From the IMG/VR virus record IMGVR_UViG_3300033148_005795, positions 1 through 30,753 of that record: a stretch of DNA of 30,753 bases; one strand, written 5' to 3'. The notes under the pieces are model-generated. The model had not been told where the DNA came from and did no database searches. It saw only the letters and a list, made by a program, of their open reading frames with translations. This DNA is from a virus. The position numbers and the translations under genes are program-made. This document shows, one piece after another, positions 2,928 through 30,753 of the stretch. Within the stretch, counting starts at the first letter, position 1. Each line of letters starts with the position of its first letter.

Positions 2928-2999
2928 GTTGGCCGTGGTGTAGGGGTCGCACGCCTGACTGTGGATCAGGAAGAGGGGGTTCGAGTCCCCTCGGTCAAC
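2928..2999 (+). tRNA. tRNA-His (anticodon GTG)
   Basis: A full cloverleaf can be drawn. The acceptor stem is TTGGCCG with CGGTCAA (one G-T pair), preceded by an encoded G at position -1 that faces C73, the identity element of bacterial tRNA-His. The D stem is GTGT/ACGC. The anticodon stem CCTGA/TCAGG encloses the loop CTGTGGA with anticodon GTG at 2961-2963. The T stem-loop is GGGGG-TTCGAGT-CCCCT. CCA is not encoded. It is the only tRNA found in the window. Phage tRNAs can supplement host codon supply or replace tRNAs cleaved by host defences. Confidence 0.93.
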
Positions 3000-3020
3000 C
3001 TTCCAAAGAAAGGAGCAGTA

Positions 3021-4215: not shown

Positions 4216-4376
4216 GTGAAGGGTTGCAGCTTCTCTTCGATCTTTCTGTCACCGTGTTTCTCTTCGCCAGCATAATCTGGACCCAGAAGCTGCAACGTCG
4301 TATCGAGCAACTGGAGAGCAAGGCCTCTGATGCCCAACTCGATGTTCACCTGAGTGACGACCCGCAGCCCTTCTGA
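4212..4376 (+). CDS. Small membrane-anchored helical protein, 54 aa
   Basis: Translationally coupled to the preceding gene by ATGA. Residues 5 to 24 form one membrane helix (LQLLFDLSVTVFLFASIIW), followed by a short coiled-coil-like helix (QKLQRRIEQLESKA) and an acidic tail. This layout, a membrane anchor plus a short coiled coil, recurs in the gene at 5047 and is common in small phage inner-membrane proteins of unknown role. Confidence 0.6.
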   Translation: MSEGLQLLFDLSVTVFLFASIIWTQKLQRRIEQLESKASDAQLDVHLSDDPQPF

Positions 4377-4389
4377 TGAGGAGTCTCGT

Positions 4390-4803
4390 ATGATGGACCG
4401 CATACTACTCTGGCTTGCGTGGCGACTACCGCGGCGACTCGTCTACCATTGCGCTGTTCGTCTCAGCTCGCACGCACACCCGCGCTTTGGAAAAGACGAA
4501 GTGGTGCTGCTGACGATGATGGAAGCACTGAGGCGATGGGACGTTCAATATGTGGTGTATCGAGCGAAACTTGATAGTTATACGTGCCCCAATTGCGAAG
4601 CCCTGGACGGCATGGTGTTCAGGATAGGAAGTGACGAGTACGGGAAGCACAAGCCGCCGTTACCCAACTGGAGTCCTCGCCACGGGTGCTTATACTTGAT
4701 CTGTCACGCGGAATATCCTGGGCAAGTAGCGAATGAGGACCAAGCCTGCCGTTGTGTCTATGTGCCATGCAACAAGCAGGGAGTCCCATATGAGCCTTCC
4801 TAA
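4390..4803 (+). CDS. Stand-alone MuF-like zinc-motif protein, 137 aa
   Basis: GAGGAG lies upstream of tandem ATG codons at 4390 and 4393; the first is used here. Residues 1 to 55 are basic and helical. Residues 59 to 101 read AKLDSYTCPNCEALDG, then KPPL and a later RHGC. This matches in order the C-terminal motif of MuF minor head proteins (ATLDSRTTPICQRLD, then PPxH and GC in the 17208 product of this window), in which a Cys-rich turn is followed by a PP-H-x-C segment. It therefore looks like a MuF tail domain lacking the MuF helical body. Two further CxC or CxxC groups follow at the C-terminus (QACRC, PC). Role in the virion is inferred only; it could also be an unrelated treble-clef protein. 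Confidence 0.55.
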   Translation: MMDRILLWLAWRLPRRLVYHCAVRLSSHAHPRFGKDEVVLLTMMEALRRWDVQYVVYRAKLDSYTCPNCEALDGMVFRIGSDEYGKHKPPLPNWSPRHGCLYLICHAEYPGQVANEDQACRCVYVPCNKQGVPYEPS

Positions 4804-19378: not shown

Positions 19379-20308
19379 TTGGCTAGTGTAACGCTCGTCG
19401 AATCGGCGAAGCTCAGTGTGAACGAGCTCGTAAGCGGGGTGATTGAAAACGTCATCACCGTGAACCAAATGTTCCAGATGCTGCCTTTCGAGGGCATCGA
19501 CGGCAACGCCCTGCAGTACACCCGAGAGAATGCCCTGGGTGCCGTGCAGCTCGGAACGGTAGGTACCGTGATCAGCGCCGGCAAGGCCGCTGCGACCTTC
19601 ACCAGCGTCACCAGCGCGCTGACGACCATCATCGGCGACGCCGAGGTGAACGGCCTGATCCAGGCCACCAGAAGCAAGGAGACGGACCAGACCACGACCC
19701 AGGTCGAGAGCAAGGCCAAGAGTGCTGGGCGCCAGTACCAGGACATGCTCATCAACCAGGACATGCTCATCAACGGGACCGGCGCAGGGCTGCAGTTCAG
19801 CGGACTGCTCAACCTGGTCGACGCCACCAAGCTGATCGCCCACAACGGCAATCTCTCCTTCGCCATCATGGACGAGCTCATCGACCTGGTGACGGACAAG
19901 GACGGAGAGGTCGACTACTTCGCCATGAACGGTCGGACGGTGCGTGCCTACCTGGCGTTGCTCCGAGGCCTCGGTGGGGCCGCCATCGGCGAGGTCATAA
20001 CGCTGCCGAGCGGACAGGATGTCCCCGGGTACCGTGGGGTGCCGATCTTCACCAACAACTGGATCCCGGTGAACCAGACGACCGGGAGTCTGACGAACAC
20101 CACCACGATCTTCGCCGGCAACTTCGACGATGGCTCCCAGAGCATCGGCATCTCGGGCCTCACAGCGGCCGAGGAAGCGGGGATCGTCATCGAGGACGTG
20201 GGTATCCACCAGACACGGGACGAGTACATCACCCGTGTGAAGTGGTACTGCGGTTTGGCCTTGTACAATCTCAACGGTCTGTCCGCGGCCAGCGGTGTGT
20301 ATGACTGA
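19379..20308 (+). CDS. Major capsid protein, HK97-like (309 aa, TTG start)
   Basis: This should form the head shell. It starts at TTG: AGGAGG ends seven bases upstream, whereas the ATG between them reads only four codons before a stop. N-terminal residues 1 to 30 are helical; residues 30 to 75 (MFQMLPFEGIDGNALQYTRE) and the later region (VDYFAMNGRTVRAYLALLRG, then DVPGYRGVPIFTNNWIP) resemble the P- and A-domains of HK97-fold capsids of similar length. It ends YITRVKWYCGLALYNLNGLS, typical of the C-terminal strand. Residues 121 to 132 are a perfect tandem duplication QDMLIN-QDMLIN. Two hairpins follow the stop codon. Confidence 0.85.
   Translation: MASVTLVESAKLSVNELVSGVIENVITVNQMFQMLPFEGIDGNALQYTRENALGAVQLGTVGTVISAGKAAATFTSVTSALTTIIGDAEVNGLIQATRSKETDQTTTQVESKAKSAGRQYQDMLINQDMLINGTGAGLQFSGLLNLVDATKLIAHNGNLSFAIMDELIDLVTDKDGEVDYFAMNGRTVRAYLALLRGLGGAAIGEVITLPSGQDVPGYRGVPIFTNNWIPVNQTTGSLTNTTTIFAGNFDDGSQSIGISGLTAAEEAGIVIEDVGIHQTRDEYITRVKWYCGLALYNLNGLSAASGVYD
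19739..19774 (+). repeat. Perfect 18-bp tandem duplication in capsid gene
   Basis: CAGGACATGCTCATCAAC occurs twice head-to-tail (19739-19756 and 19757-19774), keeping the frame and adding six residues (QDMLIN) to the capsid protein. The absence of any difference between copies suggests a recent event or an assembly artefact. Confidence 0.95.
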
Positions 20309-20424: not shown

Positions 20425-20724
20425 ATGGCCAAGAAGCTCTCCATGCCTTCAGAGGTGCGTGATACGCGTACCTCTGTTTCCCGTTCCAGATCCACCTCCA
20501 AACCGGCGCAGCCCAGGGTTCGCTCTGCAGCGGCGAAGGCGAGTGAGATCGTTGTCCCTTCGCCGAAAGAGGGGGAGACCGTCAGCCTGAGTATCAAGCG
20601 GGCTGAGGGAGGGCACATCGTCGAGCAGCACACCACGGACAAAAACTGGCGCACCAAATCGGAGCGCACCAGGGTGGTGACGGGCGACCCCAAGATCACA
20701 GTCGAGACCGAGACCGAGGAGTAA
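20425..20724 (+). CDS. Small capsid-proximal protein, 99 aa
   Basis: GAGAGAGGA precedes the ATG. The first 45 residues are basic, Ser/Arg-rich and probably disordered (VSRSRSTSKPAQPRVRS); the rest is a short beta-like domain (GETVSLSIKRAEGGHIVEQH, then RTRVVTGDPKITVETETEE). Position directly after the capsid gene suggests a head decoration or minor head protein, but no family is recognised. Confidence 0.5.
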   Translation: MAKKLSMPSEVRDTRTSVSRSRSTSKPAQPRVRSAAAKASEIVVPSPKEGETVSLSIKRAEGGHIVEQHTTDKNWRTKSERTRVVTGDPKITVETETEE

Positions 20725-20746: not shown

Positions 20747-21913
20747 ATGAAGACGTTTATCTCAACTGGACCGCTCGAAGGGCACACTGGCATGATCGCC
20801 AGTTGGATGTTCACGGACGGTCGCCTGGAGCTGCCCGATGACGATGCTGATGCTGCCAGCCGAATCCTGTGCAGATTCCACGGCTGCAAGATCCTGGAGA
20901 CCGGGGACATGATCGTTGCTATCTGGGGACCGAAGCGGGATGGCGCCTGGCGCACCAGAGCCCAGCAAGTCGCCCGGGAGCGATGGCCAGGGCGTGCCCT
21001 TCAAGTGAGGCATCCGAGCCAGTGGAAGCCCCTGTCCAAGGAAGAGGCAGCCCGCATTGACGGCGTCCTGGTCACCGAAGGCTGCGAACAGGTGGTCGAT
21101 GGCTGCTACGCCGGGGGCATCAGGCCAATACAGGTCGTCACCATTCCGCTCAACCCCGGCGTGCCGGATCCAGGCCGCAGTGCGTCCGAGACGCAGGGGA
21201 AATCGCGGACAGGAACGTACCTGGCAGACCCGAATGATGATGATCCGACCAACCCGGAAGACCCACCCGTTACGGATCCAGGGCCCGGGGCGCCTGGTGA
21301 GGTGCTGGCTCCGGCTGGTGTCCCCGCGACCGATCCGGACGCCGACGAGCGCGCGACGAAGACGGCGGTGGCAGAGCGATTCATCGAGAAGGACCTCGAA
21401 GAGATCGTCGGGCTGCTGAAGGACGGGGACATGGCAACCGTCCTGACGGACGAATTGCTTGAGGAAGCTCTCAAGATTGAACTGGCCTCTGGGGAACCGA
21501 GGGGAGAGGTGGTGGAGGTGTTGAGTCTGCGCGTGGGCAAGCCGGTCGACGCGGTGGTGGAAGCAGCTACCGGCGCGGTGGCCACCGACGAGACAGCGGA
21601 TAACGTCCCGGATGAGGCCCAGGTTGAGGCTCAGGTTCAGGATGGAGATCAGAGCCCGGACGCTGCAGAGCCTCCCGACGATAGCGGGAAGGTGACGCCG
21701 GCAACGGTCTCGCCAGAGACGTTCGTCAGGATGTCGGTACGTGCAGTGCGCGACGCGCTCGGGTCGGACGAGTACCGGCCTATCCTGACAGCCGACTTCC
21801 TGCGGGACGCGATTGAGGCAGAACAGGAGAAGGCCAGGCCGCGTGAGGACACGTTGCGGAAGCTGCGCATGCGCATGCACCGAGAGCAATCGAACCAGAA
21901 GACGTCACCCTAA
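20747..21913 (+). CDS. Capsid-proximal protein with shared N-terminal module (388 aa)
   Basis: Residues 1 to 50 (starting MKTFISTG, with FTDGRLELPDDDADAA and RILCRFHGCK) are clearly the same module as residues 1 to 50 of the glycosyltransferase at 25348. Residues 50 to 135 are a second small domain. A Pro/Asp-rich linker follows. Residues 216 to 263 and 327 to 376 are two copies of a helical unit with the pattern (V/I)LT..(L/F)L..A......PR......LR.R. This layout suggests a head-associated protein, for example a head-tail connector accessory or a scaffold for other proteins. Function unknown. The N-terminal module might be a capsid-binding domain; that is inference. Confidence 0.6.
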   Translation: MKTFISTGPLEGHTGMIASWMFTDGRLELPDDDADAASRILCRFHGCKILETGDMIVAIWGPKRDGAWRTRAQQVARERWPGRALQVRHPSQWKPLSKEEAARIDGVLVTEGCEQVVDGCYAGGIRPIQVVTIPLNPGVPDPGRSASETQGKSRTGTYLADPNDDDPTNPEDPPVTDPGPGAPGEVLAPAGVPATDPDADERATKTAVAERFIEKDLEEIVGLLKDGDMATVLTDELLEEALKIELASGEPRGEVVEVLSLRVGKPVDAVVEAATGAVATDETADNVPDEAQVEAQVQDGDQSPDAAEPPDDSGKVTPATVSPETFVRMSVRAVRDALGSDEYRPILTADFLRDAIEAEQEKARPREDTLRKLRMRMHREQSNQKTSP

Positions 21914-21939: not shown

Positions 21940-23232
21940 ATGAAGTGGTGCATACTCGGAATTGACGGCTACCTCGGCTGGACGCTGGCGTGCCATCTGG
22001 CATCCCTGGGAGAACAGGTGTGCGGAGTGGATGCGTTCCTTCGCCGGAAGTGGGTCGAACGCGTGGGCTCCAGATCGGTGATTCCCATTGCGTCGATGCC
22101 TGATCGGCTGGCGACGTTCGCTGCGGCGTTTCCTGATCACGGGCCGCTGCCGTTCACAGAGCTGGATCTGCTGGCGTACACGAAGATGCGGGACTTCCTG
22201 AAGGGGCAGGAGCCGGATGTGATCGTTCACCTGGCAGAGCAGCCGAGCGCGCCGTATTCGATGATCGACCAGGAGCCTGGCGCTGTGACGATCACCAACA
22301 ACATCGTCGGAACCTACAACGTGCTGATGGGGATGCGGGAGGTGTGTCCGGAGGCGCATCTGATCAAGATCGGAACGATGGGCGAATACGGAACCCCCGG
22401 TATCCCGATCCCTGAAGGGGTATTCCCTCCTCTTGCGCTTTGGGAGCACGGCACGCCAGAGGGGGAACAAGTATCAGGCTGTGAGCCGGTCTGGCCTTCG
22501 TTTGTCGGGAGGCTCTCCGGTCTCCAGTTCCCCCGCTGCCCAGGCTCGACGTACCATGCTGCCAAGTGCATGGACACCGTCATGGTTGAGTTCGCCTGTC
22601 GCATGTGGGGGCTGACTTCAACGGACATCATGCAGGGCGTTGTGTATGGGACAAGTATCCCGGCCTTCGATGACCCCGAGCTGCGCACACGGTTCGACGT
22701 AGACGAGTGCTTCGGCACCGCCATCAATCGCTTCGTTGCCCAGGCCATCATCGACGAGCCGATCACGCCATACGGGGCTGGCCACCAGAAGCGAGGCTTT
22801 CTGCCGCTTATCGACTCGATGCGGTGCATCACCCTGTTGGGCCAGAATCCACCTGCTGCTGGAGAGTACCGAACGGTCAACCAGCTCGAAGCCGTGTACG
22901 ACATCACCGACCTGGCGCTGAAGGTGCGGGCTGCAGGGAAGCGCGCTGGCCTGTCCCCGCGCATTCGCAACTGGACCAACCCGCGGACAGAGCAGGAGGA
23001 ACACACGTACGAAGTCATACACGACAAGCTGACGGCGCTGGGCTACGAGCCGACGCGGGACATGGACTCGGTGCTGGATGGAATGTTCGCCGATCTGCTT
23101 CCCCACAAGCGCCGCATCGAGAGCGTGGCGAAGCTCATTCGTCCGCGTACGAGATGGCAATCCATAGGACCATGTCAGGAAGAGCTGGGGCCGCTTGATG
23201 GACCGGAAGAGGCAGAGGCCGTAGAGGCATGA
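21940..23232 (+). CDS. sqdB: UDP-sulfoquinovose synthase-like enzyme (SQD1/SqdB family, 430 aa)
   Basis: The family makes UDP-sulfoquinovose from UDP-glucose and sulfite, using NAD. The sequence follows plant SQD1 closely: GIDGYLGW (Rossmann NAD loop, residues 7 to 14), IASMPDR, EQPSAPYSMID (100-110, SQD1 has EQRSAPYSMID), NNIVGTYNVL, KIGTMGEYGTP (143-153), Y205-x3-K209, QGVVYG and CFGTAINRFVAQAI. T146, Y205 and K209 correspond to the catalytic Thr, Tyr and Lys. A 20-residue insertion before the Tyr and an acidic C-terminal tail are differences. In bacteria and plants the product feeds sulfolipid; archaeal Agl3 feeds a protein glycan. Here it leads a cluster of glycosyltransferases and sulfotransferase-like genes, so glycan use is more likely. 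Next gene overlaps (ATGA). Confidence 0.85.
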   Translation: MKWCILGIDGYLGWTLACHLASLGEQVCGVDAFLRRKWVERVGSRSVIPIASMPDRLATFAAAFPDHGPLPFTELDLLAYTKMRDFLKGQEPDVIVHLAEQPSAPYSMIDQEPGAVTITNNIVGTYNVLMGMREVCPEAHLIKIGTMGEYGTPGIPIPEGVFPPLALWEHGTPEGEQVSGCEPVWPSFVGRLSGLQFPRCPGSTYHAAKCMDTVMVEFACRMWGLTSTDIMQGVVYGTSIPAFDDPELRTRFDVDECFGTAINRFVAQAIIDEPITPYGAGHQKRGFLPLIDSMRCITLLGQNPPAAGEYRTVNQLEAVYDITDLALKVRAAGKRAGLSPRIRNWTNPRTEQEEHTYEVIHDKLTALGYEPTRDMDSVLDGMFADLLPHKRRIESVAKLIRPRTRWQSIGPCQEELGPLDGPEEAEAVEA

Positions 23233-24665
23233 GCGCACCGCTCGTTACCGTTATCGTTGGGGTGCGCTTTCCTCCAGATGAACCAGAACGCAAGCGCAAT
23301 GCTTTGGCGACAATGCGTGCGCTCAACCGCCAAACGCTGCCGCGCGACCAGTACCGGCTCATCCTTGTCGAAGAGTCGGATAAGGCACGGTCGTCTGCCA
23401 AACTGACTGCGCTCGCGGACAAGACGTTCTGGCGCAAGAGCGATCAGCCGTACAACCGAGGCGCGGTATTCAACCACGGCGTGGAGAAGGCCGCGCTGGA
23501 TCCTGGCGACGTAGTCTGCCTGATGGACTCGGACCTGGTGGTGCCAGAGGACTTCCTGTCTTGCTGTGTCGAAGAGATGGCCAATAACGAAGTGATGATT
23601 GCCTTCGACGAGATTCGGTATCTCGATACAGAAGAGAGCGGTAGTGTATGCCGCGCTCTTGAAGACGACCACCCGAGTCTGCTGGAGTTCAGTGCCGATA
23701 GCAGCGATACCCTCAAGAAAAGGACCCGGAAGTTTCCTGGCGTGGGCGGGGCAATGTGGATTCGCGTCGACTTATACAACGAAATAGGCCGTCACGATGA
23801 AGAATACATCGGCTGGGGCTGCGAGGACTCTGACTTGTACCTGCGGCTCGAGCTGCGGCTACAGAATCCGATTCTCAGGGCTCATCTACAGGTAGCCCAC
23901 CTGTGGCATGTAAACGCCGAGCGTGGCGAGACGTATGAGCGCAATCTGCGGCGGTACAGGTACAAGCGAAAACCGAAGCTGAACTATGGGCAAACGAAGG
24001 ATCAGGAAGGCGTAATCTTTGCCGCGAACGGAGCGCGGGTCTTCCACTTCGGACCCAAGGCCCAGAAGTTCGGCCGATACTGGACAGTGATGACCAGAAA
24101 GAAACACACGCTGTCGGAGCCGGATATGCTTGCTGCCATTGGCAAGCTGAACCTGCAGGGGACATACGTTGACGTAGGGGCGCACGTGGGCAACCACACG
24201 GCGTTCTTTGCCGGGTGTTGTCCGAGTACGCGGGTTGTCGCAATTGAGCCGGACCAGGACCGCATGGCGGCCCTGATGGAAACAGTAACTCTCAATCGGC
24301 TCAAAGGTGTCAAAACGCTGCGAATAGGAGCGTGGTCAAAGCGCGGGTTTATGGTACCGACAAATACGCTGAAGTGCACATTCTCAGAAATATCTGTACC
24401 CCTGGCGGCTGAGGCTAGGACGCTGGATGAGGTTCTACAGAAAGACAAAGATGTCATTCTGATCAAGATTGACACGGAGGGTTCGGAGCGCGAGATATTG
24501 CTTGGGGCGCAGGACGTATTAGCCAGGTGTCAGCCGCACCTGTTCGTCGAGACGATCGACCCGCGCGAGAAGGGCAGAATCGGAAAGATGCTGCACGGCA
24601 AGTACCGATTCGTCGCCACCTACAACGCGACCCCAACGCATCACTGGGCGCCGATAGCAAGTTGA
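23229..24665 (+). CDS. GT2 glycosyltransferase fused to FkbM methyltransferase (478 aa)
   Basis: Residues 1 to 260 are a GT-A glycosyltransferase: VTVIVGVRFP strand, LILVEESD, D100-x-D102 in MDSDLVV (metal and nucleotide sugar binding), GGAMWIR and the GWGCEDSDLYLR motif (195-206), as in galactosyltransferase/GT27-like enzymes. Residues 300 to 478 are an FkbM-type SAM methyltransferase: VDVGAHVGN (314-322), IEPDQD (339-344) and IKIDTEGSE (412-420). FkbM enzymes O-methylate sugars or other hydroxyls, so one protein may add and then cap a sugar. It overlaps the SQD1-like gene by four bases. The acceptor is unknown. Its GT domain is similar to that of the 25348 protein. Confidence 0.82.
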   Translation: MSAPLVTVIVGVRFPPDEPERKRNALATMRALNRQTLPRDQYRLILVEESDKARSSAKLTALADKTFWRKSDQPYNRGAVFNHGVEKAALDPGDVVCLMDSDLVVPEDFLSCCVEEMANNEVMIAFDEIRYLDTEESGSVCRALEDDHPSLLEFSADSSDTLKKRTRKFPGVGGAMWIRVDLYNEIGRHDEEYIGWGCEDSDLYLRLELRLQNPILRAHLQVAHLWHVNAERGETYERNLRRYRYKRKPKLNYGQTKDQEGVIFAANGARVFHFGPKAQKFGRYWTVMTRKKHTLSEPDMLAAIGKLNLQGTYVDVGAHVGNHTAFFAGCCPSTRVVAIEPDQDRMAALMETVTLNRLKGVKTLRIGAWSKRGFMVPTNTLKCTFSEISVPLAAEARTLDEVLQKDKDVILIKIDTEGSEREILLGAQDVLARCQPHLFVETIDPREKGRIGKMLHGKYRFVATYNATPTHHWAPIAS

Positions 24666-24670
24666 GTCTG

Positions 24671-25351
24671 ATGGCCACACTCCCTACTGGCAAGCGCCTC
24701 ATCATCGGGCTCGGGACCGGGCGCTGTGGGACGGTGACGCTGTCTCGCTTCCTGAGTGCCCAGCAGGACGTGGATGTAAGCCACGAGGGCCGAACTATCA
24801 AGGCTCCTGTTGCCCTGCTGCCCTGGGAACGCAATCGGCGTTCCTTTGAGAAGGTGCTGGCGCGTGTCTATGAGTGCGGCGCCGGGGCAACCTACATCGG
24901 CAACGTTGGGTTCTACTGGCTGAACTATGTGCGCTGGTTGATGGAGGATGCCGGTAATCGAGTACGATTTATTTGCTTGCAGCGAGACCGCGCCGAGACC
25001 GTTGACAGTTTCCTGCGACGTTGCTACCGCCGGAATCGCGACCATTGGACACTGGACAGACATGAGCGCGGCTGCCAAGTGAGTCCGCTGGCCGACAAGG
25101 CTTTCCCAAAGTTCCCAGGAACGCTAAAGCAGGCTCTTGGCTGTTACTGGGACCAGTACTACAAGATTGCTGCCCAGTTGGTGGCTGAGTTTCCTGACAG
25201 CTTTCGCATCTTCCCGACTAGTGCACTCAATGACCAGTCGGAATACAGCGGCATTTTGGACTGGGCTCAGATACCGAAGGAACAGCGACGCACCTGGAAG
25301 CCACGGCGATTCAACTCGTGCCCGGCGTGGGGGAATTTGAAGAAGAGATGA
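24671..25351 (+). CDS. Sulfotransferase-like protein A (226 aa)
   Basis: Sulfotransferases move sulfate from PAPS to a hydroxyl. GLGTGRCGTVTLSRFL (residues 13 to 28) matches the 5'-phosphosulfate-binding loop, and VRFICLQRDRAETVDSFLRR in the middle matches the strand and Arg of the 3'-phosphate-binding motif. Residues near 155 (YWDQYYKIAAQLV) match the typical W..YY helix. The C-terminal part is similar to that of many bacterial sulfotransferase-fold proteins. A paralogue is at 28675. The ATG at 24671 is used because the gene starts five bases after the previous stop. The substrate is likely a glycan from the neighbouring enzymes; this is inferred. Confidence 0.7.
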   Translation: MATLPTGKRLIIGLGTGRCGTVTLSRFLSAQQDVDVSHEGRTIKAPVALLPWERNRRSFEKVLARVYECGAGATYIGNVGFYWLNYVRWLMEDAGNRVRFICLQRDRAETVDSFLRRCYRRNRDHWTLDRHERGCQVSPLADKAFPKFPGTLKQALGCYWDQYYKIAAQLVAEFPDSFRIFPTSALNDQSEYSGILDWAQIPKEQRRTWKPRRFNSCPAWGNLKKR

Positions 25352-27291
25352 AGACCTTCACACTTACAGGTGAGCAGCGGGGGTATACTGGCAAGGTTGG
25401 CGGTTGGGACTTTGAAAACGGATCCCTCGATCTGTCGGATGCAGACGGTGGGCTGGCTGAGAGGATTCTGTGTCGTTTCCACAACTGCAAGATGCAGGTG
25501 ACGGAGGATGGTGGTGGCAGCGCACGGCTCATTGTCGTCGTAGGCTTCAGGGTGAATGATGAACAGCCAGAGCGGGCCACCAATGCGTTGCATTGCCTGC
25601 GCGCGCTCGCTGACCAGTCGATTGAGCGGGACACATACCAGATCATTCTCGTCGAAGAAGACAAGAAGACGCGCTGTCCCAAGGAGCTGCTGGAATACGT
25701 AGACCAGCATGTGTTCTGTCAATCGACGGCAGCGTATAATCGGAGCCGAGCGTTCAACACCGGGGTGGAACATACTAAGGCAGGTGGCGATGATCTCCTG
25801 TGCCTGATAGATGCCGACATTCTTGTTGATCGCGAGTATCTAAGTCGCTTAGGACTGCACCTGCGTAATGCAGATGCAGTGTTGCCCTATCGGTCAGCTT
25901 TGTATCTACACCAACTCGCTACCCCCCTCGTTATTGAGGGACGGTTTGGGACTGACCCGGACCTGGCAGAGGCGGCCAGATATTCAGGCCGAACATGGGC
26001 GGCCTTGGGTGGGGCTCTGTGGATCAAGGCATCGTTGTACAAGAACCTCGGCGGCTATGACAAGCGGTTCGTAGGTTGGGGCTGTGAAGATCGGGATATG
26101 TGGCACCGTCTCAATGCGGTCACGGAAGTAGAAAGAGTGCCAAGGATAATGTACCATCTGTGGCACCGGAGAAGTGACCCGGGACCTGAGCACAAAGTGA
26201 ATCGGAAGCTATTGAAGAAATTGCACCCCGGTATGCGCGGCCGGCAGAGCAACAAGACAGGCGTCACCGTAGGAGAGAAACCAGAACGGCCACCCCGGCG
26301 AGAGGGGAAACTGCAGATACTCTGGCTTACCATCAACCGCGATCATCGGGTTGCGCGCATCTTCCAGCCGGTCATGGAGCAAATCAGGCGGCGTGAAGAT
26401 GTCACGGTGTACTGTCACGACCGGTTCCGTTGGGATTTCTCAACCGTTATGGGACCGAACCCCAAGCCACAGCCACCGGAGCTTGATGTTGCCTGGGTTA
26501 ACGAGTTCGACATTGTATTCACCGATGCGGTTTTCGGGTACCTCGGCGACGACTGGCCCGCGGTGACCGCGTATAAGTGCTGCCTGATAGAAGATTGCCA
26601 CTGTGAGATGCCGGAGCGGTACGTCAGGCAAGCGTACGAGCAATTCGGGTTCGACGCTTTCTTCTACCGCTACCAGGAAGGCTTCGAGAAGCACCATAGC
26701 TATGTCGATGTTCCGACACGATGGCTGCCGCACAGTATCGACCCGTTAATCTTCCGTGTAGGAGATGCCCACAGTTTTACCGAAAGGGAGCATACAGCAC
26801 TGTCGGTAGGAGTAGACGTACAGGCGACCTATCCGCTGCGGTTTCAAGCGAGTCGAGAGCTGAGGGGCCTGGATGGCTACAAACGGATTCAACGACCAAT
26901 AGAGAACGATGGGAACGCGTGGCCCGTAGGGGAGGACTATGCAAACCTCCTCCGTGCGTCAAAGATCGTTGTGAGTGGGTGTAGTATCTACCATTACCCA
27001 ATCCTGAAGACGTTCGAGATCCCTGCCTGCGGCGCCGTCCTGGCTTGTGATGCGATTCCCGACTTAGACGAACTCGGGTTTGTGCCAGAAGTGAACTACC
27101 TCCCGTTGAAAAAAAACGTCCCTGGTCATATCCGCGAAGTGATAGAACACTGGCTGGCAGAAGGTCAGCGAGATGCACTTGAGACAATTGCGAAAGCTGG
27201 CACCAAACTCATACTGAATAAACACACCGCCGCCATTCGTGCTGGGGAACTATCGGCTCAGCTCAGAGAACTATTAGAGGTGAAGACATGA
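25348..27291 (+). CDS. Three-part glycosyltransferase: shared module, GT-A and GT-B domains (647 aa)
   Basis: Residues 1 to 50 (MKTFTLTG, FENGSLDLSDADGG, RILCRFHNCK) are the module also found at the N-terminus of the capsid-proximal 20747 protein. Residues 60 to 300 are a GT-A domain like that of the 23229 protein, with D155-x-D157 in LIDADI and GWGCEDRDMWHR (243-254). Residues 321 to 647 are a GT-B domain (ILWLTINRD, WLPHSIDP, HYPILKTFEIPACG) closely related to the whole 29337 product, reminiscent of CgeB-type glycosyltransferases. The ATG is preceded by GAAGAAGAG and overlaps the preceding stop. Two transferase domains could add two sugars in turn. The N-terminal module may direct the enzyme to the head; this is inference. 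Confidence 0.8.
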   Translation: MKTFTLTGEQRGYTGKVGGWDFENGSLDLSDADGGLAERILCRFHNCKMQVTEDGGGSARLIVVVGFRVNDEQPERATNALHCLRALADQSIERDTYQIILVEEDKKTRCPKELLEYVDQHVFCQSTAAYNRSRAFNTGVEHTKAGGDDLLCLIDADILVDREYLSRLGLHLRNADAVLPYRSALYLHQLATPLVIEGRFGTDPDLAEAARYSGRTWAALGGALWIKASLYKNLGGYDKRFVGWGCEDRDMWHRLNAVTEVERVPRIMYHLWHRRSDPGPEHKVNRKLLKKLHPGMRGRQSNKTGVTVGEKPERPPRREGKLQILWLTINRDHRVARIFQPVMEQIRRREDVTVYCHDRFRWDFSTVMGPNPKPQPPELDVAWVNEFDIVFTDAVFGYLGDDWPAVTAYKCCLIEDCHCEMPERYVRQAYEQFGFDAFFYRYQEGFEKHHSYVDVPTRWLPHSIDPLIFRVGDAHSFTEREHTALSVGVDVQATYPLRFQASRELRGLDGYKRIQRPIENDGNAWPVGEDYANLLRASKIVVSGCSIYHYPILKTFEIPACGAVLACDAIPDLDELGFVPEVNYLPLKKNVPGHIREVIEHWLAEGQRDALETIAKAGTKLILNKHTAAIRAGELSAQLRELLEVKT

Positions 27292-27902
27292 TGCACCGTG
27301 CAAGTCTCAACCACTGGCTCAATGAGGACAACCCCGTGCCGCGCGAGCTAAAGCGGCTCATGGAATTGCGCTACAACTTTGCCGTCCAGCACGTCAGCGG
27401 GGTAGTCTACGATGCCGGGTGTGGGCATGGCTTCGGTACCAATATCCTGGCCAATTCGCCGTCAGTGACGCAGGTAATAGCACGAGACATTGACGACGAA
27501 GCCGTCGCCATCGCGGGAACCCAATTGCAGAGCCGCTATAACGTCGATCTGGGGGTGATGGATATTGAGGCCGAACCAATTCCCCGGGGCGTTGATTACG
27601 TTGTCTGCACTGAGGTGATCGAGCACCTTCAGAACGCCGGTGCATTCATACGGAAGATCAAGCGGAGCACGTGCGCTGGGGCTGTATTGTCTTGGCCCCT
27701 AGACCGGTCCGTCAACCCTTTCCACTTGCGTAAATTCGAGGCAGGAGAGATGGAGAGGCTCATGGGGGGCTGGGATGGCGAGGTTCGCCAAATGGTCCAA
27801 CGAGTTCCCACACGCAACAAGCTGCGCCTGTATGAGTTGGGAGTGTTCCACCGTCGCACACGCAAAGCAAGCGAGGTAAGTCATGGCACTGTCGAAAGGT
27901 GA
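27288..27902 (+). CDS. SAM-dependent methyltransferase A (204 aa)
   Basis: Class I Rossmann methyltransferase. VVYDAGCGHGFGTN (residues 39 to 52) is motif I, ARDIDDEAV is the acidic motif II, and DYVVCTEVIEHL is the typical post-II segment. Similar proteins methylate sugars, quinones or small molecules. The 30277 product is a paralogue (VVYEPGCGHGYGT, ARDTDANAI). The gene overlaps the glycosyltransferase by four bases, suggesting joint expression. The target is unknown; a glycan hydroxyl or carboxyl is most consistent with context. Confidence 0.8.
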   Translation: MMHRASLNHWLNEDNPVPRELKRLMELRYNFAVQHVSGVVYDAGCGHGFGTNILANSPSVTQVIARDIDDEAVAIAGTQLQSRYNVDLGVMDIEAEPIPRGVDYVVCTEVIEHLQNAGAFIRKIKRSTCAGAVLSWPLDRSVNPFHLRKFEAGEMERLMGGWDGEVRQMVQRVPTRNKLRLYELGVFHRRTRKASEVSHGTVER

Positions 27903-28662
27903 GTTTCTGCGAATGTACCCCAATCTTCCGGCGTTACCGGAAGTAGAGGTCCCGCTCGACTGGAACACCCACGAGTTCTACACGGCGTCAGGGGACAATC
28001 CAGATATAGACACAGCGGATGCCCCGGAGGACGTCTGGGACGCTGGTGGTGAGTGGCCAGGCTACGTCGGCGCTGGTGATGTGACCGTTGTCTCTAACAG
28101 CGGGCAGGACGCAGCAGGAGGGACCGGGGCGACAGGCACACGGTTCTGGGGCACGAACGATGCCGGCGTAATCACCACCGGCGCTGTGACACCGACTGGG
28201 GTCGTTGCTGCGGCTAGTGGTGTCGATCTCATCGCAGTATTTGAGGCCTGGGTCAATGCCGCAGGCACAGATGAGTCCAACGCCGGTACGTTGACATTCA
28301 CCATCGGCGGTGTGACGGTCGCGGAGATTCAGCCTCTTGCAGGTCGCGCTCAGTCCGCTATCCGCCCGGTGCCGCCAGGGTACCAAGGTTTCATCATTGG
28401 AGTCGAGGTATCGGCTTCGGAGATCGGGACGGGCGTTGGGCATACGGTGGCTGAACTGAAGACAGCAGTCACGGGGAGCGCGTGGCAGAGGCGACTGTCC
28501 ATGAGTATCGAGGGCACTGGTGGCCCGTACATAGCCCCGCTCCGAGTTGCCATACCTCTCCAAGCGGATGCAGTGGCGAAGGTTTCATGCGCTCAGGTCA
28601 TGTCCAATAACATCCATGTGAGCGCTCTCCTGACGATGCTGCTGGTGGCACACCAGAACTAG
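27883..28662 (+). CDS. Probable virion surface protein, beta-rich (259 aa)
   Basis: The product has a Gly/Ala/Thr/Val-rich, strand-and-turn composition. DAPEDVWDAGGEWPGY (residues 45 to 60) followed by VTVVSNSGQDAAGGTGATG strongly resembles the start of phage structural proteins with a 'DVWdgGG...vS.s..D...GTGa.t' pattern found in decoration or fibre proteins. The rest is a likely beta sandwich (GTLTFTIGGVTVAEIQPLAG, then VPPGYQGFIIGVEV). It overlaps the methyltransferase by 20 bases and lies inside the modification island, so it could be the protein that is glycosylated. No signal peptide, which fits a virion protein. Role inferred. Confidence 0.6.
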   Translation: MALSKGEFLRMYPNLPALPEVEVPLDWNTHEFYTASGDNPDIDTADAPEDVWDAGGEWPGYVGAGDVTVVSNSGQDAAGGTGATGTRFWGTNDAGVITTGAVTPTGVVAAASGVDLIAVFEAWVNAAGTDESNAGTLTFTIGGVTVAEIQPLAGRAQSAIRPVPPGYQGFIIGVEVSASEIGTGVGHTVAELKTAVTGSAWQRRLSMSIEGTGGPYIAPLRVAIPLQADAVAKVSCAQVMSNNIHVSALLTMLLVAHQN

Positions 28663-28674
28663 GACCAGAACGAT

Positions 28675-29355
28675 ATGAGACTTCTCTTCGGTTGCGGTTC
28701 GGGACGGTGTGGCACAAAGTCGCTATCGAGGCTGCTACAGGCTCAGGGCGCCAAAGTATCTCATGTGATGGCCCACTGCCCTCCTGGAACTGGCTATCCT
28801 GGCTTCGACCTCAAGCTGCCGTGGGACGGCGTTGACAATCCCATCTTCCGCGAGGCCGTGTTCCGCATCTGCAGCCGAGATGGGGACGTGGCCGGCGATG
28901 TTTCGCCGTTCTGGCTCAACTACGTACCGCTAATTCTCGCTGAGTATCCCGACTGCCGGGTGATCTGCCTTCAGCGCGAGCGTGGTAAGTGCATAGCGTC
29001 ATTGCTGGAAATGCAAACCGGGATCGGACGCAATGACTTCTCTGAGGATGTCGGCGAGGATACGAGGGCAGCCAGGCTGACGCCGAAGTTTCCGCTGAGC
29101 CGAGAGGACGCCACGGCACGCTTTTGGGACTGGTACTACACTCAGGCGCAGCTTATTCAGAGCGCCTATTCTCGACGCTTCCGGATCTACCAGACGGAGA
29201 TGGTCCTCAACAACCCACACTATCAGATGGGCATGCTGATGTGGGCAGGCTTTGACGTCCCGGTGGTCGAACCGGGTATTCATTGCAATACGATGGTTGA
29301 GATTCGAGCAAAACGTGCGCGCAAGGCAGCGGGGCTATGCGAATCCTCTGGTTGA
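28675..29355 (+). CDS. Sulfotransferase-like protein B (226 aa)
   Basis: GCGSGRCGTKSLSRLL (residues 6 to 21) is the phosphosulfate-binding loop and VICLQRERGKCIASLLEM the second binding motif, both parallel to the 24671 product. The two proteins have the same length (226 residues) and share DWYYTQAQLI / DQYYKIAAQL, so they are duplicates that have diverged. ATG lies eight bases after AGGA. The end overlaps the next gene by 19 bases. Substrate unknown; probably a glycan or a peptide side chain in the same system. Confidence 0.7.
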   Translation: MRLLFGCGSGRCGTKSLSRLLQAQGAKVSHVMAHCPPGTGYPGFDLKLPWDGVDNPIFREAVFRICSRDGDVAGDVSPFWLNYVPLILAEYPDCRVICLQRERGKCIASLLEMQTGIGRNDFSEDVGEDTRAARLTPKFPLSREDATARFWDWYYTQAQLIQSAYSRRFRIYQTEMVLNNPHYQMGMLMWAGFDVPVVEPGIHCNTMVEIRAKRARKAAGLCESSG

Positions 29356-30290
29356 CAATCGACCGCGCAACGCGAATCCAGCTCATCCACCAGCCTATTA
29401 TGGAGGAGATGAAGAAGCTGGAGGACGTGACCATCTATTCACATGCGCGGTGCTCTCGAGAGGCGCCCGAGGGTGAACAGATACGCTTGCTGGGCGCTAC
29501 CTGGGTAAACACGTTCGACGTGGTATTCACTGACGCAGTATTCGGGTATATGTGTGAGGAGTGGGACAAGGTAACGGTCCTGAAGTGCTGTTACCTCCTG
29601 GACCTTCACGCCCTGCCATTTATCAAGCAGGTCTGTCTCAACTTCAACTTTGATGTCTTCTTCCACCGGACACGTGCTGCATGGCGAAAGGTTTCCCGCA
29701 AGTGGGGCCAGTACGGTATTTGGTTGCCGCATAGCTTTGACCCCGTGATATTCCACCCATTGGCAACAGCAAAGAAAGAGTATCAGGTCTTGTCCATAGG
29801 TGAGATCGCTGGTTCGTTCTACCCGGTACGCCAACAAGCTCATCTAGAGATGAAAGGCACAGAGGGGTATCGCCGCATTGAGAGACCTGCACGGAAGGCA
29901 CTCAAGCCGTGGCCGGTTCGCGATGACTACGCTGAGCAACTCGGTATGGCCCGTATCGCCATCAGCTCGTGCTGCACCAAAGGCTATCCAGTGATGAAGA
30001 CTTTTGAGATACCTGCCTGTGGAACAGCACTCGCAACGAATACGATTGCCGAGTTTGCGGACCTGGGGCTCGTCGAGGGCGTAAACTACATCGGGCTGGA
30101 CGACCGGTCGCGCGGGGCGATCAGGAAAAAACTGAAGTGGTGGCTGGCTCCGCAGCAGGAGTCCGCGCTTGCAGCACTAACCGCGGCTGGCACGAAGCTG
30201 GCCCACGAGCGCCACACGGCGGCGGTGCGGGCGCGCGAGCTGCAAGTTCATCTACGGAGACTACTGGAGGAACGTAATGGCAAAGGCTAG
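29337..30290 (+). CDS. GT-B glycosyltransferase (317 aa)
   Basis: It corresponds to the GT-B half of the 25348 protein along almost its full length: RILWLTIDR / QILWLTINR, FDVVFTDAVFGYM / FDIVFTDAVFGYL, WLPHSFDPVIF / WLPHSIDPLIF, YPVMKTFEIPACGTALA / YPILKTFEIPACGAVLA and KHTAA / RHTAA. The lower-case family resemblance is to CgeB-type group 1 glycosyltransferases. The missing GT-A and shared modules show that only the GT-B portion was copied, or that the 25348 protein gained its extra parts. It ends 14 bases inside the next gene. Confidence 0.8.
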   Translation: MRILWLTIDRATRIQLIHQPIMEEMKKLEDVTIYSHARCSREAPEGEQIRLLGATWVNTFDVVFTDAVFGYMCEEWDKVTVLKCCYLLDLHALPFIKQVCLNFNFDVFFHRTRAAWRKVSRKWGQYGIWLPHSFDPVIFHPLATAKKEYQVLSIGEIAGSFYPVRQQAHLEMKGTEGYRRIERPARKALKPWPVRDDYAEQLGMARIAISSCCTKGYPVMKTFEIPACGTALATNTIAEFADLGLVEGVNYIGLDDRSRGAIRKKLKWWLAPQQESALAALTAAGTKLAHERHTAAVRARELQVHLRRLLEERNGKG

Positions 30291-30753
30291 TCGAAATCAC
30301 TGGTATGCTCCAACCGATCACTACACCAGGGAGCTGCGGCGGGTACTTGAGGAACGATATATCCTGGCCATCGACAACGTGAAAGGCGTGGTGTACGAAC
30401 CTGGCTGTGGCCACGGTTACGGGACCTTCATGCTGGCCGGCTCGCCCAGGGTGACGCGCGTCATTGCCAGGGATACAGACGCCAATGCCATTGCTACAGC
30501 TTCCGTTCACTTGGCCGGCATTCCCAAGGTGCGGATCGCCGTCGGTGACATCTTGCAATTCCCGGTGCCCGAGTGCGACTGGATTGTGTGTTTGGAGACG
30601 ATGATGTATCTCCACGATCCGGAGGCCTTCCTGAAGAAGCTCAAGGATGCCGAGCCTACCGGGATCGTGCTGGAGTGGCCGCTGGGGAACCAGAATGGGC
30701 CCTTCGGTAAGCACAATTTCAAGGCGGGGGAGATGGCCCCGCTCATGGCCGAC
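30277..30753 (+). CDS. SAM-dependent methyltransferase B (partial, cut by window end)
   Basis: GGAGGAACGTA precedes the ATG. The first 159 residues are visible: VVYEPGCGHGYGT is motif I, ARDTDANAI the acidic motif, and DWIVCLETMMYLHDPEAF the post-II region; the last visible residues (FKAGEMAPLM) align with FEAGEMERLM in the 27288 product. It is a paralogue of that gene and completes the second sulfotransferase-GT-methyltransferase cassette. The C-terminus lies outside the window. Confidence 0.82.
   Translation, partial: MAKASRNHWYAPTDHYTRELRRVLEERYILAIDNVKGVVYEPGCGHGYGTFMLAGSPRVTRVIARDTDANAIATASVHLAGIPKVRIAVGDILQFPVPECDWIVCLETMMYLHDPEAFLKKLKDAEPTGIVLEWPLGNQNGPFGKHNFKAGEMAPLMAD

Follow-up and report, generated by a model that had tools for sequence, protein, structure and literature searches.

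A putative sugar and sulfur modification island behind a phage capsid gene, with a glycosyltransferase that carries a copy of a post-capsid domain

Gene content and order of the island

The stretch of DNA studied here (the window) is a linear IMG/VR virus record of 30,753 bases, IMGVR_UViG_3300033148_005795, in which a phage head module is followed by an island of putative sugar and sulfur enzymes. PHROGs matches identify genes 5' of the island as terminase (8049), portal (15634), a MuF-type head protein (17208), scaffold (18503) and capsid (19379). The capsid gene is followed by two small head-module genes (20425 and 20747) and, directly after them, by nine genes on the + strand that reach the right end of the contig (21940-30753). 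In order, these encode an SqdB-like protein, a fusion of a GT-A glycosyltransferase (GT) with an FkbM methyltransferase, a sulfotransferase, a GT-A/GT-B fusion, a methyltransferase, a virion-like protein, a second sulfotransferase, a GT-B enzyme and a second methyltransferase (Table 1). The original prediction had listed at least nine consecutive genes of this kind with overlapping stops and starts; Pfam and NCBIfam recover all of the noted domains in place, and from the SqdB-like gene onward the intergenic gaps range from -20 to +12 bp, with 4-bp start/stop overlaps at three gene junctions. The order sulfotransferase, GT-B, methyltransferase is present twice, and since the respective copies share 33%, 43% and 45% identity, part of the island probably goes back to an old duplication within it. 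Chance packing of genes was considered as well, and is ruled out by the domain scores, the overlaps and this repeated order.

Table 1. Genes of the window from the capsid gene to the right end of the contig, with supporting matches
Feature	Position	Strand	Evidence
Major capsid protein	19379..20308	+	phrog_212, E 6e-63; 66% to Pseudomonas phage PaMx11 major head protein; anchor of the slot
Small head-module protein	20425..20724	+	46% to G001 gene at same place; PaMx11 gp17-like by eye
Post-capsid protein, aa 1-54 = post-capsid domain (PHROG 6213 type)	20747..21913	+	blind HMM, E 7.4e-6
SqdB-like UDP-sulfoquinovose synthase (putative)	21940..23232	+	NF041015, 449 bits; SQD1, E 6.7e-86; catalytic motifs kept
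GT-A + FkbM methyltransferase fusion	23229..24665	+	PF00535 33 bits, PF02709 27, PF05050 63, TIGR01444 83; PF10111
Sulfotransferase 1, P-loop-like GTGRCGT	24671..25351	+	PF13469 16 bits, under cut-off 27; 33% to sulfotransferase 2
Post-capsid domain (aa 1-52) + GT-A + GT-B fusion	25348..27291	+	PF02709, PF00535, PF13524; domain by BLASTP and HMM
SAM methyltransferase 1	27288..27902	+	PF08241 47 bits
Virion-like protein (putative virion role)	27883..28662	+	phrog_8198 (function not known), E 1.6e-10; no Pfam match
Sulfotransferase 2	28675..29355	+	PF13469 30.4 bits, cut-off 27 passed
GT-B glycosyltransferase 2	29337..30290	+	PF13524 29.6 bits; 43% to GT-B part of 25348 protein
SAM methyltransferase 2, cut by contig end	30277..30753	+	PF08241, E 4.5e-10; 45% to methyltransferase 1
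aa, amino acid; HMM, hidden Markov model; UDP, uridine diphosphate; SAM, S-adenosylmethionine.

Two stretches of the SqdB-like protein (aa 4-161 and 189-411) align with SQD1, and the protein keeps the GxDGYxGW cofactor loop, the Thr of TMGEYG (the residue altered in SQD1 entry 1i2b) and the Tyr-His-x-x-Lys (YHxxK) motif. Between the motifs lies an insert of ~22 residues (aa 162-183) that is without counterpart in the cellular homologues covering that place. The nearest cellular matches are mostly from Chloroflexota (48-52% identity), together with one cyanobacterial metagenome-assembled genome (49%), and in a tree the phage row forms a long branch among sequences taken mostly from a single class, that of G002. 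An 8-mer scan of viral contigs and a tblastn search of the phage collection returned no SqdB relatives. Of the sugar-sulfur chemistry originally proposed, the enzymes are present, but the SqdB step, which would yield a sulfonated nucleotide sugar before transfer, and the sulfotransferases represent separate chemistries.

Among the other enzymes, the 28675 protein reaches the Sulfotransfer_3 gathering score and the FkbM domain exceeds both of its cut-offs (PF05050, 63 bits vs 22.7; TIGR01444, 83.1 vs 37.7). None of the sugar enzymes of the window has a membrane-like segment, and hence no lipid-linked export route is seen. The 27883 protein, for which the scan returned no relative, is borderline in this respect (1.66), as are four enzymes of the relative G001 described below (1.67-1.72); we take these for buried segments.

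A post-capsid domain fused to a glycosyltransferase

The protein encoded behind the capsid gene carries a ~50-residue domain in 73 of 76 loci, namely those with at least 500 bp downstream, including the window, G001 and PaMx11 (six shorter loci were excluded; L020, L038 and L048 are without the domain). The set contains near-duplicates and comes to 52 distinct sequences outside the window, G001 and the short contig L003. The window holds the domain twice, in the 20747 protein and N-terminally in the GT-A/GT-B protein, and the two copies are 51% identical over 53 residues (BLASTP, E = 7e-14). PHROG 6213, a family whose function is not known, matches 42 of 51 aligned copies of the domain; the GT-borne copy is not matched at E 0.01. 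A blind HMM, built from 71 copies with those of the window, G001 and L003 left out and searched against 1153 six-frame segments of the window and G001, ranks the GT fusion first (E = 6.1e-7) and the 20747 protein second, followed by the G001 copies (0.009 and 0.014) and by noise at 1.6. The fusion most likely starts at the ATG at 25348, which overlaps the stop of sulfotransferase 1 by 4 bp. Because the GT-A/GT-B enzyme carries a second post-capsid domain, it may be able to take the same place as the 20747 protein at or close to the capsid.

Predicted on its own, the domain consists of four strands, a helix and a strand, with a mean predicted local distance difference test (pLDDT) score of 88. 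In a prediction of the whole fusion (mean pLDDT 48) the GT domains are poor, and only about aa 1-52 are good (pLDDT 83-96). Among the best viral matches of the domain are proteins of Xanthomonas phages Xp15 and Xoo-sp2 and of Bordetella phage MW2. The first solved match by E-value, a weak one, is the N-terminal part of Bacillus subtilis YqbF (2hjq; Foldseek E = 0.58, TM 0.51), which in VIA (Z 3.9, root-mean-square deviation 2.9 over 49 residues) is tied, among the families that VIA lists, with ribosomal L30 and PII proteins. YqbF is presumably a prophage head-module gene. Pfam searches with the small domains gave no match, and neither the capsid protein nor the domain profile, used as queries in sequence searches of the PDB, gave anything useful. 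By eye, the C-terminal part of the 20747 protein resembles a pair of helical repeats of ~40 residues each; G001 has one of them again in its second domain protein.

The slot between capsid and connector genes in related phages

A scan with the capsid protein returned 143 relatives; the analysis uses the best 80. The nearest, G001 (IMGVR_UViG_3300025117_000638), has a capsid protein 75% identical to that of the window and 10.4 kb between capsid and connector genes; in the window the corresponding distance exceeds 10.4 kb. Among the 80 relatives, a search with the G001 connector as query located a connector in 34, at a distance of 661-4604 bp (median 944) from the capsid gene. The remaining loci are either not long enough or too diverged for a call, and the connector of G001 itself lies outside the searched piece. 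The island of G001 consists of a methyltransferase, a second post-capsid-domain protein, a PseB-like dehydratase, a NeuD-like acetyltransferase, a LegC-like aminotransferase, two sulfotransferases, GTs and an epimerase, with enzyme calls mostly under the NCBIfam cut-offs. It is followed by connector, tail-tube, chaperone and tape-measure genes, as judged from open reading frames (ORFs) read by eye and not from a family search. The islands of the window and G001 share the sulfotransferase, GT-B and post-capsid-domain families, and differ in their other sugar enzymes. At L002:13442-16208 a dehydratase, an acetyltransferase and an aminotransferase are consecutive, a bacillosamine-type nucleotide-sugar set in a phage.

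Within the sample the island occurs in one small branch only, whose two members differ in island content. As the slot of G001 holds a different island, with connector and tail genes after it, we regard the island as phage and not host DNA. The alternative that the right end belongs to a bacterial polysaccharide locus is ruled out by the return of G001 to phage genes (the window itself stops earlier). The original prediction of a linked, phage-borne island is supported: the island of G001 occupies the same slot and leads back to connector and tail genes instead of into bacterial polysaccharide genes. The suggestion that the island is swapped as a cassette holds for the single pair of window and G001, which have mostly different enzymes in the same slot. 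The pair suggests that the slot between capsid and connector takes different sugar cassettes, and related phages would therefore wear different sugars.

Mesyanzhinovviridae (Pseudomonas phages PaMx11 and Ab18) resemble the window in a capsid protein that is 64-66% identical and in a post-capsid protein with the same domain. PaMx11 differs in having no island, with just two small genes between the capsid and head-tail adaptor genes. PaMx11 gp17, which the 20425 protein resembles by eye, is annotated as a virion structural protein. The window, a 30.7 kb fragment, was not assigned to this family, and the passages of the family's description in PMC11946847 are without mention of decoration proteins. 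The capsid protein of the window is also borderline similar to the family 2A encapsulin SrpI (22.7 bits vs a cut-off of 22.8), a similarity that passages of the same paper report for Mesyanzhinovviridae (PMC11946847). Among 199 genomes of the class of G002, the capsid protein has one distant match only, hence no host is called.

A parallel layout in Salinibacter phages

Sulfotransferase 2 of the window matches 184 of 50,697 phage records, all of them Salinibacter ruber M8 phages, which we count as one lineage since their GTs are 95-100% identical. These phages encode, in order, a capsid protein (TIGR01554, phrog_10), a sulfotransferase, a GT2 enzyme, a small protein and the connector region. 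A stretch of the GT is 54% identical over 39 residues to the adjoining small protein (E = 2e-10), and PHROG 2616 matches both alike. Five sulfotransferases used as queries yielded 47 viral loci, and in eight of them a Salinibacter-type capsid gene lies just before the sulfotransferase gene. With near-copies paired (L123/L124, L144/L145, L151/L157) these represent five lineages, the Salinibacter phage included, with capsid identities down to 34%. Each of the five GTs contains the domain of the small protein that follows it; between lineages the GTs are 45-82% identical. The HMM for this domain was built from nine of the same rows, so that BLASTP serves as the independent evidence for domain sharing; for L151 the GT and the small protein match each other weakly (E = 0.024), and the L146 small protein lies outside that test.

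The Salinibacter ruber M8 phages (OR896xxx), L123, L146, L150 and L151 are like the window in the succession of capsid, sulfotransferase, a GT with a head-module domain and a small protein. They differ in belonging to another capsid family, in having two enzymes only, and in the position of the domain, which lies in the second half of the GT and not at its N-terminus as in the window; their proteins are annotated as hypothetical. The blind HMM of the post-capsid domain has no match in the 47 sulfotransferase loci. PHROG counts for neighbouring genes, for which 111 of 260 listed proteins were scanned, show mixed contexts in the remaining loci, the commonest being GT, aminotransferase, methyltransferase and major head protein, each at most five.

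Proposed function and alternative explanations

We consider it likely that the island decorates the virion in some form, and with moderate confidence favour a virion glycosylation cassette whose GT is docked to the head by the post-capsid domain. The cassette would most likely be expressed late, together with the head genes. As its homology and kept catalytic residues suggest, the SqdB-like enzyme would convert UDP-glucose of the host, with a sulfite donor, to UDP-sulfoquinovose. In the cytoplasm, soluble GT-A and GT-B transferases would then assemble a short glycan on a head protein, the FkbM and the two other methyltransferases would cap sugars, and the two sulfotransferases would add sulfate from 3'-phosphoadenosine 5'-phosphosulfate. 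The GT-A/GT-B enzyme, by its copy of the domain, would act on assembling heads; the acceptor would most likely be a head protein (the capsid protein, 20747 or 27883). A bolder form, which we hold tentatively and at somewhat less than even confidence, is that tailed phages have repeatedly, at least two times independently, made a small head-module domain an address tag on a GT that decorates the assembling capsid, and that such coat cassettes are exchanged in the slot that follows the capsid gene. The cassette of the window would then, equally tentatively, put the anionic sugars sulfoquinovose and sulfate on the head.

Several points weigh against this interpretation. Glycan, acceptor and docking are all deduced from sequence. 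The SqdB-like protein scores 449.2 bits over the full NF041015 model and misses the equivalog cut-off of 575, and is therefore named SqdB-like; sulfotransferase 1 lies below the Pfam cut-off (16.0 vs 27), yet is 33% identical to sulfotransferase 2. The location of the domain on the capsid is suggested by gene order, and its match to a solved fold is weak. The right end of the island lies beyond the window, and an exact 24-mer from the window end found no overlapping contig. Within the capsid family, island carriers are two contigs and a short near-copy only (L003, which matches G001 itself), and none of 54 other loci with at least 3 kb downstream matches any of 18 island proteins from the window and G001. 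As to the parallel, 39 of the 47 sulfotransferase loci have no Salinibacter-type capsid gene nearby. HHalign finds no relation between the domain of the window and the Salinibacter-type domain; homology of the two was accordingly rejected, and the parallel is one of layout only.

Glycosylation of the virion with an incidental domain, that is, a duplication relic at the insertion edge which provides a translation start and no docking, is an unlikely alternative. The domain does duplicate readily in this slot, as G001 has a second copy within its island as a separate protein; the GT-borne copy, however, is intact, predicted to fold and in frame from a start coupled to the stop of sulfotransferase 1, and a GT with the small head-module domain of its own phage recurs in five lineages of considerable divergence. 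Phage GTs often alter host surface glycans, and we regard it as somewhat less probable still that the island does so during infection or lysogeny, in the manner of serotype conversion and superinfection exclusion, and leaves the virion as it is. GtrB-like PHROG matches occur near related sulfotransferases (5 of the 111 scanned neighbours), but the soluble nature predicted for the sugar enzymes, the position of the genes in the head module and the head-module domain on the GT argue for the virion, and neither a flippase nor a polymerase was seen in the window.

Phages also glycosylate DNA bases, and the enzymes might modify phage DNA or, as auxiliary metabolic genes, alter the production of sulfolipids or N-glycans by the host. 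A phage SqdB has been interpreted in the latter sense, for host N-glycosylation (PMC7785012). We consider both quite improbable here: FkbM, sulfotransferases and two-domain GTs beside a capsid gene suit protein glycans better, and no nucleotide-modifying gene is found among the ten scanned proteins from 20747 onward. The original interpretation stands insofar as a linked modification island lies in the structural module, whereas mimicry of host glycans and evasion of receptors or defences cannot be told from a role in particle stability or adhesion. The post-capsid domain on the GT, the repeat within the island and the Salinibacter parallel had no place in the original prediction.

Relation to known systems

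Glycosylation of phage capsids, GT and methyltransferase genes within structural operons (PMC4351075, PMC11256854) and a phage SqdB (PMC7785012) are already in print, as far as passages of these papers go. In mycobacteriophage Corndog (cluster O), gp35-gp38 comprise a methyltransferase and three GT-type genes within the structural operon; the modification proteins were found in infected cells, and modification of the capsid was proposed as their role (PMC4351075). Such a placement of GT genes is likewise seen in the gene order of the window and G001. In Corndog, however, the genes lie between portal and protease, and the passages concerned mention neither sulfur chemistry nor a GT-borne capsid-associated domain. 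In mycobacteriophages Che8 and Rita, glycans are covalently attached to the major capsid proteins and phage GTs are held responsible (Freeman et al. 2023, via PMC11256854); unlike in the window, the related phage Maravista has its GT genes close to the 3' end of the genome, and the passages on them mention no sulfotransferase or SqdB (PMC11256854). A Mu-like virus from the Cariaco Basin shares with the window a putative UDP-sulfoquinovose synthase gene; its description, in the passages on this gene, includes no sulfotransferase/GT island or capsid tag (PMC7785012). A capsid-domain/GT fusion or a capsid-linked sulfur cassette was not found in the open-licence literature, searched mostly at the level of listings, nor do passages of PMC11806900, PMC9599517 and PMC8402811 contain either.

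Phage heads are commonly regarded as bare protein. If a GT addressed to the capsid does make a swappable anionic sugar coat, this would account for the choice of the capsid by a soluble enzyme and would constitute a modular means of addressing enzymes to capsids. A domain shared between a GT and the gene next after the capsid gene would then be a sequence signature for other sugar-coated phages, and the proposal would be directly testable in a cultured system, the Salinibacter ruber M8 phages.

Further observations in the window

Outside the island, the ORF at 10918-12354 contains an isochorismatase-like stretch by eye (VVVDMQVDY ... VCGVNLGACVRDTA), with no Pfam match at 0.1. A tRNA-His gene is located at 2929-3000, and a second, short MuF-like protein is encoded 5' of the terminase at 4354-4803 (PF04233, 26.1 bits, below the cut-off of 29.6). 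Towards its C-terminal end the terminase large subunit (8049-9779) seemingly contains a small intein (TIGR01445, 16.3 bits, below the cut-off of 24.5), placed by eye at ...SHL/C...GN/SDAVGYYV (slashes mark the candidate junctions), close to the nuclease motif. A small ORF at 10114-10380 shows, by eye, a tandem CSxNNxxxSSxREExxYTGL repeat.

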